Source: Anaerolineae bacterium
GTDB taxonomy: Bacteria; Chloroflexota; Anaerolineae; 4572-78; J111
NCBI GenBank assembly: GCA_016931895.1
Contig: JAFGDY010000006.1
Coordinates: 1 to 33,788 of the forward strand
Length of the DNA: 33,788 nt
Direction: 5' to 3'
Shown: positions 6,870 to 32,434 of the stretch, one piece after another
How the letters are laid out: every line of letters starts with the position of its first letter
Numbering within the stretch: the stretch's first letter is position 1
Translations under genes and position numbers: made by a program
The notes under the pieces: generated by a model
What the model was told of the DNA's origin: nothing
Database searches by the model: none
What the model saw: only the letters and a program-made list of their open reading frames with translations

Positions 6870-6922
6870 CAGGTAGCAAGGTAGCAGATAAAAAGTTTGC
6901 TACTCTGCTACCTTGCTACCTG
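6870..6922. repeat. Perfect 18-bp inverted repeat between cox3 and cox4
   Basis: The 18 bases at 6870-6887 are the exact reverse complement of 6905-6922, around a 17-nt loop. Each arm is built from repeats of a GGTAGCA/TGCTACC heptamer, and more TGCTACC copies flank the right arm (up to 6928). It sits in the 175-base gap of the oxidase operon. It could be a palindromic repeat insertion or an mRNA-processing and stability hairpin that sets the ratio of subunit IV to the upstream subunits. Confidence 0.75.
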
Positions 6923-28064: not shown

Positions 28065-28516
28065 AAATTTAGAAATGTGTTTACCCCTTAAATCCCTCCG
28101 TTAACGGGGGAACAGAGAGGAATAAAACTTGCCCCAAAATCCAACACCCTCTTTTGATTTGCCCAAAAGGGCGTAAGCAGGTAAGATTATTTACAATCAA
28201 AACATTTCATCCTCCAGAAGATTATGACCGATTCAATTGTAATCCCGGGAAAAAATTGTTGTACATGTATGAAGCGGGCGCGGTAGCCCCGCTCTCAACA
28301 GGAGAGAGTGGGTGGCTACGGTAGCCCGCATCGCCGTGTGGCAACGACGATGAGACTCTCAAGCAGACCTGCGATTACAATTGATTTGTTTAGCCGGCCA
28401 TAGCGGTCAATAATTTAATATTAATCTTACTGAGCAGGCTCATCGTCAGGTGTACGGTGAGTTTTTTGTTTTTAAGGCCCGCAATATTTAGGGTTCAGAC
28501 AAAAAAGGAGGCCATC
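28065..28516 (+). other. Non-coding region between the suf operon and the cysteine synthase gene
   Basis: These 452 bases hold no gene. There is a perfect 10-bp palindrome CCGTTAACGG (28098-28107), a GCCC-aaaa-GGGC hairpin (28161-28172) and the 152-bp structured element at 28233-28384. The cysteine synthase ribosome site (AAGGAG, 28505-28510) closes the region. Confidence 0.6.
28233..28384. ncRNA. 152-bp strongly folded element bounded by a perfect 12-bp inverted repeat
   Basis: TCAATTGTAATC (28233-28244) and its exact complement (28373-28384) close the element. Inside, GCGGGC (28274-28279) pairs with GCCCGC (28324-28329), GTAGCC (28283-28288) with GGCTAC (28314-28319), and CTCTC (28292-28296) with GAGAG (28302-28306 or 28304-28308), forming one long central arm. 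A third domain (28330-28372) contains TCG/CGA pairings. It matches no riboswitch or RNA class I recognise. Terminal repeats also fit a small non-autonomous transposable element, but no target-site duplication is visible. No strand is assigned. Confidence 0.5.
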
Positions 28517-29497
28517 ATGGCCTTTATAGAAACAATGGAAAAAACGCAAACAAAAACTGCCTTTGTCACCAAACGGCCGGCCGAACCCCGGCCCCTGGGT
28601 GATAGTTTGTTAGCCCGCATTGGCCACACCCCCTTGTTACCTCTGCATCGCCTGGCCTGCGCCGAGGGAATCTCGCCCAGGGTGGTGATTTTTGCCAAGG
28701 CGGAATGGTTTAATGCCGGCGGCTCGGTAAAGGCCCGGCCCGCCCTGGCCATGATTGAAGACGGGGAAAGAACGGGTTTACTGACCCCGGCTAAAACCAT
28801 CGTCGAGGCCACCTCTGGCAATACCGGCATTGCCCTGGCCATGATTGGCGCGGCCAAAGGCTACAAAGTCACCCTGGTAATGCCCGCCAACGCCAGCCAG
28901 GAACGCAAAGACATCTTGCTTGCCTACGGCGCAGAGTTGGTGCTCACCGACCCCCTGGCAGGCATTGACGGTTCCATTCGCACGGCCAACGAGATGCTGG
29001 CTCAAAACCCGGAACGCTACTTCCGGCCCGACCAGTACAACAACCTGGTCAACTGGCAGGCGCACTTTCATACCACCGGCGTGGAAATTTGGCAGCAGAC
29101 CGGGGGCGCCGTAACCCACTTTTTGGCCGGCATTGGCACCGGCGGAACCTTGATGGGCACAGGCCGGCGTTTGAAAGGATTTAACGCCAATATCCAGGTG
29201 ATGGCGGTGGAACCGGCAGACGAATTGGGCGTTATTGAAGGTTTGAAACACATGGAAACCAGCATCGTGCCTCAAATCTACGACCCCCACTTCCCTGACC
29301 GCAAAATTGCCGTCCGCCCCAACGAGACCCGCGAGATGGCCCGCCGCCTGGCCCTGGAAGAGGGTTTGTTTGTAGGCTACTCCGCCGGGGCCGCCGCCTG
29401 GGCCTCAATTCAATTAGCCAAAACCCTTGAGGAAGACAGCGTGATTGTGACGGTTTTCCCCGACGGCGGCGAAAAATATCTCAGCGTGGCCAGATAG
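28517..29497 (+). CDS. PLP-dependent cysteine synthase family protein (CysK/CysM-like)
   Basis: This enzyme would make cysteine from an activated serine and sulfide. ATG 28517 has AAAAAGGAGG upstream; the frame is open from 28457, but those extra residues have no ribosome site. The protein has 326 residues. The PLP lysine lies in NAGGSVKARPA (K72), where most relatives have NPGGSVKDR. The phosphate and substrate loops are SGNTG (100-104) and GIGTGGTL. No CBS domains follow. Cysteine made here could feed the SufS desulfurase, whose operon lies just upstream. O-acetylserine, O-phosphoserine or a related substrate cannot be told apart. Confidence 0.88.
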   Translation: MAFIETMEKTQTKTAFVTKRPAEPRPLGDSLLARIGHTPLLPLHRLACAEGISPRVVIFAKAEWFNAGGSVKARPALAMIEDGERTGLLTPAKTIVEATSGNTGIALAMIGAAKGYKVTLVMPANASQERKDILLAYGAELVLTDPLAGIDGSIRTANEMLAQNPERYFRPDQYNNLVNWQAHFHTTGVEIWQQTGGAVTHFLAGIGTGGTLMGTGRRLKGFNANIQVMAVEPADELGVIEGLKHMETSIVPQIYDPHFPDRKIAVRPNETREMARRLALEEGLFVGYSAGAAAWASIQLAKTLEEDSVIVTVFPDGGEKYLSVAR

Positions 29498-29602: not shown

Positions 29603-30001
29603 GTGGGCATATCAAACCCTCGCCTTCTCATCGCCGAACCCGATCACGACATTCGGGCGTCGTTAGAGATATACTTCAAAAACAACGGCTACGAGATTCG
29701 GGCAGTGGAGGCTGCCGACGAAATCTTAAAAGTGTGCCGTCCCTGGCAACCCAACGTTATTCTCATCAGCGACGAGTTTACCGGGACAGACCCTTATCAG
29801 ATTTGCCGGGATTTATTGGACGACACCCTGACCGGCCACATTCCCATCGTCATGCTGCTCCATCTTAACGAGCGCCGCGCCCGGCTGGAGGCCCTGGAGG
29901 TGGGAGTCAACGACATCATCACCAAACCCTTTGATATTGAGGAATTGCGATTGCGGATTGAAGCGGCCATCCGCCTTTCGACCATGCGTTTGGAAGCCTG
30001 A
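29603..30001 (+). CDS. Receiver-domain-only protein (atypical response regulator)
   Basis: The 132 residues form one CheY-like receiver with no output domain. It starts at GTG 29603 (GAAGAGG 15-9 bases upstream). The acidic site near the N-terminus (AEPDHD) and the conserved Lys in ITKPFDIEEL are present. At the phospho-acceptor position the sequence reads NVILISDEFTG. Aligned on the TGTDPYQIC segment, the usual Asp falls on Ser, with an Asp one residue later. The switch Thr/Ser position reads VMLLHL, so it is Leu. It may be a phosphorylation-independent receiver or bind a partner constitutively. No kinase gene is nearby. Confidence 0.82.
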   Translation: MGISNPRLLIAEPDHDIRASLEIYFKNNGYEIRAVEAADEILKVCRPWQPNVILISDEFTGTDPYQICRDLLDDTLTGHIPIVMLLHLNERRARLEALEVGVNDIITKPFDIEELRLRIEAAIRLSTMRLEA

Positions 30002-30043
30002 TTTGAACGGATAGTTTTTGCCGTTTGGCTAACAATGAGTACT

Positions 30044-30079
30044 ATACGGTATCTGCCGGTGTAGATACCGTATTTTTTT
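30044..30079 (+). terminator. Rho-independent terminator before lysC
   Basis: ATACGGTATCT (30044-30054) pairs perfectly with AGATACCGTAT (30063-30073) around an 8-nt loop, followed by seven T (30073-30079). It should end the receiver-gene transcript. Because it lies only 20 bases before the aspartate kinase start, it could also act as an attenuator for lysC. Confidence 0.88.
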
Positions 30080-30099
30080 GCGTAAGGGGGACCTGAACC

Positions 30100-31512
30100 T
30101 TGCTGATTGTAATGAAATTTGGCGGCACTTCGGTGGGGAGTGTCCAGGCTTTAGAAAAAGTGGTTGAAATTGTGAAAAAGGCGAAGGCCCAAGGCCATCA
30201 GTTGGTGGTTGTGGTTTCGGCCATGAGCGGCGTAACCGACTTGCTGCTCAATGCGGCCTATGCCGCCGCAGCCGGCCACGAAGAGGGCGCCGGCCAGGCG
30301 CGGACGCAAATTGCCCAAAAACACACCGAGGCCCTGTACCATTTTTTAGAAAAAAATTCTGAACGGCAAGTGATGCTAACCCGCATCAACGCCCTGCTGG
30401 CCGAATTCACGGCCTTATGCCACGGCATCAACGTATTGGGTGAATTGACCCCGCGCGCCCTGGACGTGATTGGGGGCCTGGGCGAACGGATGAGCGCGCC
30501 TCAGGTGGCCGCCATTCTGAGCCACGCGGGCGTGCCGGCGCAAGACATCCCGGCCACCGACCTGATTGTAACGGATAATCGTTTTGGCTCTGCCGTGCCA
30601 TTGATTGAGCAAACCGGGCAAAAGGCGCAGGCGGGCTTGCGCCCCGTTTTGGCTAAGGGCAAAGTGGCGGTGGTCACTGGCTTTATTGGGGCCACCGCAG
30701 ACGGCGTGCAAACCACCCTGGGCCGCGGCGGCAGCGATTATTCGGCCACCATTCTGGGCCGCGCCCTGGGCGCCGATGAGGTGTGGATTTGGACCGACGT
30801 TAACGGCGTGATGACGGCCGACCCGCGCGTAGTGCCGGAGGCGCACCCCATCACATACCTGTCTTATGCCGAGGTGAGCGAGTTATCTTATTTTGGGGCC
30901 AAAGTGCTCCATTCTCAGGCCATCCGCCCGGCCCGGCGGGCCAATATTCCGGTGCGTATCCTCAACACCTTTGCGCCTGACCACCCCGGCACCCTTATCA
31001 CCGCCGAAGCCAAAGAGTCTACCAAAACCGTTAAGGCCGTCACCGCTATCAAAAATATGAGCTTGATTAGCCTGGAAGGCCAGGGCATGGCCGGTATCCC
31101 CGGCGTGGCCGGCCGCACCTTTACCGCTGTGGCCCGCACCGATACCAATATTTTGATGATCAGCCAGGCCTCGTCGGAGCAGGCCATTTGTTTTGTGGTC
31201 CCAACATCTGATGTACCCAAAGTGGTTGCCTCACTGGAAAATGAATTGGCCCGCGAGATCGAGCGGCGCGATTTTGACCGGATTAAGGTGGAAGATGACA
31301 CCGTGATTCTGGCGGTAGTGGGGGCGGGAATGAAAGGCACCCCCGGGGTCAGCGGGCGCTTGTTTGGGGCGATGGGCCGGGAAAAGGTGAATGTGATTGC
31401 CATTGCCCAGGGCAGCAGCGAGTTCAATATTTCATTGGTGGTGGCCAAGGGCGAGGCGGATAAGGCTGTCCGGGTGATTCACCAGGAATTTGAATTGGAG
31501 AAACCGGATTGA
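30100..31512 (+). CDS. lysC: Aspartate kinase
   Basis: It phosphorylates aspartate, the first step to lysine, threonine and methionine. TTG 30100 is chosen because AAGGGGG lies about 9 bases upstream. An ATG at 30112 would remove four residues. The 470-residue protein has KFGGTSVGS at the N-terminus, the kinase core with GFIGATADG and TTLGRGGSDYSA, and two C-terminal ACT domains (about 325-465) for feedback control (SSEQAICFVV and SSEFNISLVV). Its length matches the long monofunctional class, related to the kinase half of ThrA. No homoserine dehydrogenase domain is fused. Confidence 0.94.
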   Translation: MLIVMKFGGTSVGSVQALEKVVEIVKKAKAQGHQLVVVVSAMSGVTDLLLNAAYAAAAGHEEGAGQARTQIAQKHTEALYHFLEKNSERQVMLTRINALLAEFTALCHGINVLGELTPRALDVIGGLGERMSAPQVAAILSHAGVPAQDIPATDLIVTDNRFGSAVPLIEQTGQKAQAGLRPVLAKGKVAVVTGFIGATADGVQTTLGRGGSDYSATILGRALGADEVWIWTDVNGVMTADPRVVPEAHPITYLSYAEVSELSYFGAKVLHSQAIRPARRANIPVRILNTFAPDHPGTLITAEAKESTKTVKAVTAIKNMSLISLEGQGMAGIPGVAGRTFTAVARTDTNILMISQASSEQAICFVVPTSDVPKVVASLENELAREIERRDFDRIKVEDDTVILAVVGAGMKGTPGVSGRLFGAMGREKVNVIAIAQGSSEFNISLVVAKGEADKAVRVIHQEFELEKPD

Positions 31513-31522
31513 GCAGGGGCTG

Positions 31523-32434
31523 ATGAGTAACATTAATCCCGCAATTTCTATGCCCAAACCAAATCTGGGGCGCGCAGCCCTGGGGGCATTGGTCACCGGC
31601 GCAGTGGCAACAGGCTTTGCCCCTGTTTTTGTGCGCTTGAGCGAGCTTGGCCCCAGCGCCACCGCCTTTTGGCGCGTGGCCCTGGCCGTGCCTGTATTTT
31701 GGCTGGTACTGAATGTTGAGAGGCAGCATACCACTCCACCCGGGCCCCACTCTCGCGCCATCGGTTATCGCTGGCTGGCGGTGGCCGGCCTGTTTTACGC
31801 CTTCGATCTGGCCGTGTGGCATTGGTCGCTCATTTTGACCACTGTGGCCAACGCCACTTTGTTGACCAATTTTGCCCCCATTTTTGTCACCCTGGCCGCC
31901 TGGTTGTTATTTGGCGAACGCTTTAAGCGAATGTTTCTATTGGGGTTGGTCCTGGCCCTGGCCGGCGCGATCATGCTCATTGGCCAGAGTTTTTCGCTAG
32001 GCTCCCAAAATTTACTGGGCGATATATTGGGTTTGGTGTCGGCCATGTTTTATGGGTGTTACCTGCTCACCGTGAAACAACTACGGAACCACTTTTCCGC
32101 CGCCACCATTATGACCTGGGGCGGCGTGACCAGCAGCAGCGCCTTTTTAGTTTTTGCCTTTGTCTCCGGCGAGCATTTAGTGGCGTTCACGCTTCAGGGT
32201 TGGGCTATTTTAATTGGCATGGCCCTGGTTTCTCAGGTGAGCGGCCAGGGTTTGATTGCTTATGCGCTGGCCCATTTGCCCGCCTCCTTTTCCGCGGTCA
32301 CGTTGTTGTTGCAGCCGGTGGTGGCGGCTTTTTTGGCCTGGTTTATTCTGGCGGAGGGTTTAGGCCCCTGGCAGGCCCTGGGCGGCCTGGTTGTGCTGGC
32401 CGGAATTTGGCTGGCCCGGCGGGGAAGCCGTTAA
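31523..32434 (+). CDS. EamA/DMT family transporter
   Basis: A 303-residue membrane protein with about ten helices made of two EamA repeats (first about 20-150, second about 165-300; RLSELGPSATAFWRVALAVP and LLLQPVVAAFLAWFILAEG are family-typical). These drug/metabolite transporters export small molecules such as amino acids. The substrate is unknown. ATG 31523 is preferred (GCAGGGG upstream), starting 10 bases after lysC, so the two are probably co-transcribed and an amino-acid exporter role is possible. Confidence 0.85.
   Translation: MSNINPAISMPKPNLGRAALGALVTGAVATGFAPVFVRLSELGPSATAFWRVALAVPVFWLVLNVERQHTTPPGPHSRAIGYRWLAVAGLFYAFDLAVWHWSLILTTVANATLLTNFAPIFVTLAAWLLFGERFKRMFLLGLVLALAGAIMLIGQSFSLGSQNLLGDILGLVSAMFYGCYLLTVKQLRNHFSAATIMTWGGVTSSSAFLVFAFVSGEHLVAFTLQGWAILIGMALVSQVSGQGLIAYALAHLPASFSAVTLLLQPVVAAFLAWFILAEGLGPWQALGGLVVLAGIWLARRGSR

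Follow-up and report, generated by a model that had tools for sequence, protein, structure and literature searches.

A probable cysteine-responsive leader-peptide attenuator upstream of cysteine-synthesis genes in the Anaerolineae

The window analysed here is a stretch of 33,788 nucleotides from an Anaerolineae bacterium (contig JAFGDY010000006.1, positions 1 to 33,788), in which an FeS-assembly gene (PF01883) ends a suf cluster and is followed, after a gap, by a gene for a PLP-dependent cysteine synthase (cysM, PF00291; 28517-29497, + strand). The gap measures 452 nt (28065-28516), as a preliminary description of the sequence had stated, and the perfect 12-bp terminal inverted repeat reported within it was recovered (TCAATTGTAATC, 28233-28244, and GATTACAATTGA, 28373-28384); a gap of this composition would contain a perfect inverted repeat of 12 bp within 300 nt with a probability of about 0.008. 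That the element so bounded is structured was likewise borne out: the folding energy of the + strand is -72.1 kcal/mol, where its shuffles average -44.3 (z = -7.3, 0/200), and the - strand folds more weakly (z = -5.2). Elsewhere in the window, the longest inverted repeat in our scan is a perfect 19-bp one with a short spacer (CAGGTAGCAAGGTAGCAGA, 6870-6922), and the region downstream of cysM (29603-32434) encodes a response-regulator domain protein, an amino-acid-kinase protein with ACT domains, and an EamA transporter.

The + strand of the gap contains an unannotated ORF of 20 codons plus stop (MTDSIVIPGKNCCTCMKRAR followed by a stop, 28224-28286). Its three Cys codons (28257, 28260 and 28266) lie in the run TGT TGT ACA TGT (Cys-Cys-Thr-Cys, 28257-28268), which forms region 1 of the switch proposed below. 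At the end of this leader begins the arm P2 (GCGGGC...GCCCGC, 28274-28329; recognized from the fold and from pair counts on nine relatives), whose 5' strand includes the leader stop codon (28284-28286). It is followed by the hairpin P3 (ATCGCCG-loop-CGACGAT, 28330-28351; seen in the pair counts, with a conserved C.A mismatch), and the loop and 3' side of P3 can also pair with the Cys codons, a pairing that we call P1 and examined across 44 leaders. Pair counts were made without alignment A2, where the arm is misaligned, and a refolding of the P2 3' strand on its own was dropped because it is not conserved.

Region 2, or the antiterminator strand (GACGATGAG, 28346-28354), is the exact complement of 28439-28447, which is the 5' arm (CTCATCGTC) of an intrinsic terminator (28436-28473) standing between leader and gene and completed by a 3' arm (ACGGTGAG, 28454-28461) and a U-run (TTTTTTGTTTTT, 28462-28473). 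A good ribosome-binding site can be read between the terminator and the cysteine synthase gene, whose ATG at 28517 is preceded by AAAAAAGGAGG. Upstream of the leader, the promoter-like TTGCCC-N17-TAAGAT (28159-28187, + strand) is a candidate promoter; it is weak in the window (8 of 12 consensus matches, under the scan cut-off), and relatives carry TTGACC-N17-TAAGAT at its position. The interval first proposed for the element, 28233-28384, captured genuine structure, but its ends are not the functional ones and cut through a unit that runs from the leader ORF at 28224 (or from the promoter at about 28159-28187) to the terminator end at about 28473, around a conserved core at about 28256-28362. 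Its start at 28233 falls inside codon 4 of the leader ORF, and the left repeat arm overlaps codons 4-7.

Perfect 12-bp terminal repeats and a length of 152 bp would suit a MITE-like, small non-autonomous mobile element bounded by those repeats, a reading that had been raised at the outset together with the expectation that copies would turn up at unrelated loci, their ends intact and the target bases duplicated. The copies we found are single and syntenic. The 6.06-Mb genome of the window holds one; a DNA search of 61 relatives returned single homologues in seven other genomes of the family (81-87% identity) and a homologue of 75% identity in another family of the order, and sister families also carry single copies at the same locus. 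Homologues lie between the suf cluster and the cysteine operon, as in the window; the genus sister G001 has a different upstream neighbour but keeps the downstream cysteine operon. The terminal repeat of G001 retains 11 of 12 pairs, with one mismatch and three G-T pairs, and the repeat is absent from the other genera of the family, which do conserve the arm and 3' domain; the repeat is a genus-level addition. The left repeat arm, moreover, codes for leader peptide, and no target-site duplication was seen by eye. Because there is one copy per genome, at the same locus in relatives, we do not take the element to be mobile, and the MITE-like reading seems to us extremely improbable.

In the relatives, the same unit stands before a cysO (ThiS-like) - moeB/rhodanese - cysM operon or a cysK-cysE operon, the order in the former being ThiS-family carrier (cysO; PF02597), ThiF/rhodanese (PF00899 + PF00581) and cysM. 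The window leader stands directly before cysM; its genome has no cysO match, and the protein matches for moeB are partial and rhodanese-like only. This 97%-complete assembly contains no full moeB/rhodanese gene, other leader-bearing members of the family have cysO, and the window genome appears to have lost cysO while retaining the leader and cysM. The element is missing from four genomes of the family (G002, G004, G008 and G011), and these have no cysO match either.

All homologues begin the core with a short in-frame ORF in which Cys codons cluster (G001, G003, G005, G006, G007, G009, G010, G018, G024 and the f3 genomes), examples from relatives being MMTNSIVILGKNCCTCTRRAR, MFNLTASTNCCTCIKRAR, MNLMALQRVCCCTCSMRAR, MLNVLTNAICCCICCMRAR and MICQLIALKCVCIKRGR, each followed by a stop. 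A C-x-C motif is kept in 51 leaders, and the distance from its second Cys to the stop takes three values across the class (1, 4 or 5 residues), while the residues in between vary (P, L, R, MGRA, xKRAR) and the stop codons differ (TAG, TAA or TGA) with the frame kept. The leader ends in R-A-R throughout the window's family and in R-G-R or R-A-P in sister families. The leader ORF is probably translated.

How widely the unit occurs was examined in 396 genomes of the class, 227 of which have cysO-like genes. Upstream regions were taken for 88 ThiS-family genes, comprising the 71 closest (cysO-like) and 17 distant homologues. A short ORF ending in C-x-C-(0-6)-stop lies 90-500 nt upstream of 51 of the 88, where the reverse strand gives 3 and shuffles give 3.05; the leaders precede 51/71 cysO-like genes and 0/17 distant homologues, and none was detected at 20 of the 71 cysO-like loci. 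A pattern scan of named genomes found the C-x-C-x-stop type in Caldilineaceae, Litorilinea and other Anaerolineae; about six pattern matches in unrelated phyla had no such leader and were taken as chance.

Covariance models were built from the window's family (R1) and from 16 sequences (R2). Matches to R2 occur in 54/396 genomes of the class, and 44 of the 46 class matches with E<1e-3 lie before cysO or cysK (often cysK-cysE; both genes identified at these sites by eye from the sequences, with no profile search), the other two being at contig ends. Since cysK sites were absent from the training set of R2, they provide an independent link to cysteine genes. A covariance search had been suggested as a check in the preliminary description, and the element does recur before cysteine-synthesis genes with compensatory changes. 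Two weak R2 matches in the class (G315 and G088:C68) lack both a Cys leader and a cysteine gene and were put down to chance, as were the only three that 400 genomes of the wider phylum yielded, all weak and likewise without Cys leader or cysteine gene. Low R1 matches in the class with Cys leaders, judged by eye, include those in the f3 genomes, G352, G088/G056 and others; there is another low match in G120, and those in G035 and G068 look like chance.

Several variants were seen along the way. One genome with a cysO leader has a second Cys leader before cysK (L034:1501-1586, equivalent to G009:C7:384226-384311), with the switch strands CGCGATGAGTC / GACTCATCG / CGATGAG and a frame that runs past CCIC-x-GRVR with no near stop. 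G352 carries two near-identical leaders with CCCTCNERSRGFALLAG (L035:1501-1622 and L043:904-1036), one of them preceding rhodanese and YeeE/YedE-like genes, in that order, and the other an unidentified gene, a pair that possibly reflects a wider sulfur regulon. In family f35, a leader ending CIC-x-RRGR-stop lies about 1.2 kb upstream of cysO, with something between (L036 and L040 in G088 and G056; L038 and L039 in G151 and G133).

A terminator with a complementary antiterminator strand, 40-100 nt past the leader stop, is found in nearly all surveyed relatives, an equivalent of region 2 in nearly all relatives with a terminator, and the distance from leader stop to terminator is about 100-230 nt. 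The three strands change in step from one relative to another (GGATGAGCC/GGCTCATCC/GGATGGGC; GCGGTGAGT/ACTCACCGC/GCGGTGAGT; GCGATGAAC/GTTCATCGC/CGATGAAC; in the window, GACGATGAG/CTCATCGTC). As the terminator search was tuned toward such hairpins, independent weight falls on the swap and covariation tests.

For the swap tests, the strands of three pairings (P1, antiterminator and terminator) were exchanged among 44 leaders in 5000 permutations. Cognate energies beat 5000/5000 permutations for Cys codons:region 2 (z = -6.6), a pairing not chosen for its own complementarity and with its region-2 window set by the antiterminator, and also for the antiterminator (z = -10.6) and terminator (z = -14.5), whose sites were chosen for within-sequence complementarity, so that cognate strands are favoured. 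A divergent subset of 22 controls only in part for the leaders' shared ancestry, and in it the cognate strands were again best (0/5000; z = -5.1, -8.1 and -11.2 in the same order). RNAalifold on 16 sequences recovers the Cys-codon:region-2 helix unprompted, and its pair counts exceed every one of 500 shuffles in four of the five measures, with 2/500 in the fifth, and collapse on sliding. The antiterminator and the upstream pairing are mutually exclusive, with covariation.

To follow the fold with a ribosome on the leader, we modelled the RNA up to the 5' arm of the terminator, at equilibrium and for one stage of transcription. The mean modelled probability of the antiterminator rose from 0.30 without a ribosome to 0.82 with one at the first Cys codon, which increased it by >0.1 in 34/47 cases and decreased it in none. 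The modelled peak extends from an A site three codons before to the first Cys codon itself, with a fall toward the stop; the effect is broad, and the antiterminator also gains from ribosomes placed 1-9 codons before the first Cys. For the window, the model gives 0.99 when the ribosome sits at the first Cys codon and 0.01-0.2 when it is at the stop or close to it; the ribosome-free value is ambiguous, at 0.51 or 0.86 according to where the RNA starts, and the result is mixed when the A site holds the last Cys codon (0.12, yet with the antiterminator present in the minimum-energy fold). With the ribosome at the stop, P3 and the 12-bp terminal helix close in the modelled window RNA, and the terminator then forms; the left repeat arm is paired in this termination conformer and open when the ribosome is at the first Cys codon, and in the window's genus the terminal repeat may thus reinforce the termination state. 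The dependence of the fold on ribosome position is a modelled one throughout. Equilibrium folding of the full-length RNA almost always favours the terminator, and the switch would accordingly have to act during transcription; in families with C-x-C-P-stop a modelled ribosome at the stop often blocks P1, so release would have to precede the decision.

Under the mechanism that we propose, RNA polymerase would start upstream of 28224 and the leader of 20 codons would be translated by a ribosome. When charged Cys-tRNA runs short, this ribosome would stall on the Cys codons (28257-28268) and make them unavailable to the P3/region-2 segment, leaving the antiterminator strand (28346-28354) free to pair with the terminator 5' arm (28439-28447); the terminator would be prevented and cysteine synthase transcribed. 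If cysteine is plentiful, the ribosome would reach the stop codon at the base of P2 and leave, after which region 2 would be folded in P3/P1, the terminator arms would pair and transcription would end at the U-run. The direction of such a switch (low Cys-tRNA, read-through, more cysteine synthase) is that which a biosynthetic gene needs. Cysteine is presumably the signal, and termination and read-through are predicted to take place in vivo.

We conclude that the element is very probably a cysteine-responsive, ribosome-mediated transcription attenuator that senses the level of Cys-tRNA. It combines a short leader ORF with Cys codons near its end, an intrinsic terminator between leader and gene, and downstream genes that make cysteine (a cysteine synthase in the window); the leader ORF, the exclusive pairings and the way they coevolve, and the association with cysteine genes are supported at the level of sequence and statistics. 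Of the original suggestion of a sulfur- or amino-acid-sensing RNA, the amino-acid leader survives, given the position upstream of cysteine-synthesis genes and the compensatory changes, and the small-molecule-binding RNA is disfavoured: a leader peptide with Cys codons and the ribosome translating it are the more likely sensor. A translation-free riboswitch for cysteine, O-acetylserine or a sulfur compound, with the Cys-rich ORF incidental, would account for the strong conserved fold, the overlap of terminator and antiterminator and the single class of target genes. However, the most conserved element across the class is the in-frame C-x-C with its fixed choice of stop distances, kept in frame through changes of stop codon; P2 differs widely between families, leaving no common aptamer-like core; and no Rfam riboswitch or leader family scored above its gathering cut-off, in line with the earlier remark that no known RNA class was recognized, though the kind of regulation is known. 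We therefore hold a riboswitch to be very unlikely.

Similarly doubtful is a nascent-peptide sensor whose C-x-C or R-A-R end would stall the ribosome on a ligand or metal instead of on uncharged tRNA-Cys. The conserved spacing of C-x-C, where a run of Cys codons might have been expected, and the R-A-R end of the window's family speak for it, but the residues past the second Cys vary across the class, P2 also constrains the leader end in the window's family, and the targets are plain cysteine-synthesis genes. There is also a slim chance that C-x-C serves both as hungry codons and as a nascent-chain sensor of cysteine, persulfide or metal, that is, as a sulfur-sensing arrest peptide coupled to termination.

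In the classical leader-peptide attenuators of the Proteobacteria (trp, his, leu), exclusive pairings are set by the position of the translating ribosome. The proposed Anaerolineae attenuator would share this logic, as modelled here and with no claim of sequence relation, and differs in its amino acid, cysteine, in the long distance from leader stop to terminator, and in having a long GC-rich arm that separates region 2 from the Cys codons. Closer in content is the uORFC-8-2 motif found before cysS in Rhodobacterales, which has a short ORF with tandem Cys codons at positions 14-15, two stems and an intrinsic terminator, was proposed to act by ribosome-mediated attenuation, and was described as exclusive to that setting (PMC8632094). 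Both have a short Cys-codon ORF, two stems and an intrinsic terminator, but uORFC-8-2 belongs to Alphaproteobacteria and a cysteinyl-tRNA synthetase gene, ours to Anaerolineae and cysteine-synthesis genes; given the exclusivity described, we treat them as different families by taxon and gene, judged on the published description, and a search at relaxed Rfam threshold gave no uORFC-8-2 match, although Rfam may not include the motif. The cys operons of mycobacteria and other Actinobacteria have polycysteine uORFs, for which no conserved terminator hairpins were found (PMC1262725), and control in M. smegmatis is by translation attenuation, according to Canestrari et al. 2020 (doi 10.1111/mmi.14498) as cited in PMC13236596. 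These resemble the Anaerolineae leaders in having Cys codons near the leader stop and in the cysteine-responsive control of cysteine operons (predicted for Anaerolineae); unlike them, the Anaerolineae unit has an intrinsic terminator and a complementary antiterminator. A literature search of incomplete coverage found no such Cys attenuator described for Chloroflexota. Attenuation at Cys codons is thus already known, while the Anaerolineae family is apparently new, class-wide and absent from Rfam.

For the Anaerolineae, the finding would mean class-wide control of cysteine synthesis at the RNA level, including the carrier-protein route of ThiS-like cysO and moeB/rhodanese. By accompanying the cysO-like genes and none of the distant homologues, the leader also marks which ThiS-like genes are probably involved in cysteine synthesis. 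Found by comparison alone, the unit offers testable control elements in a group where genetic tools are few.
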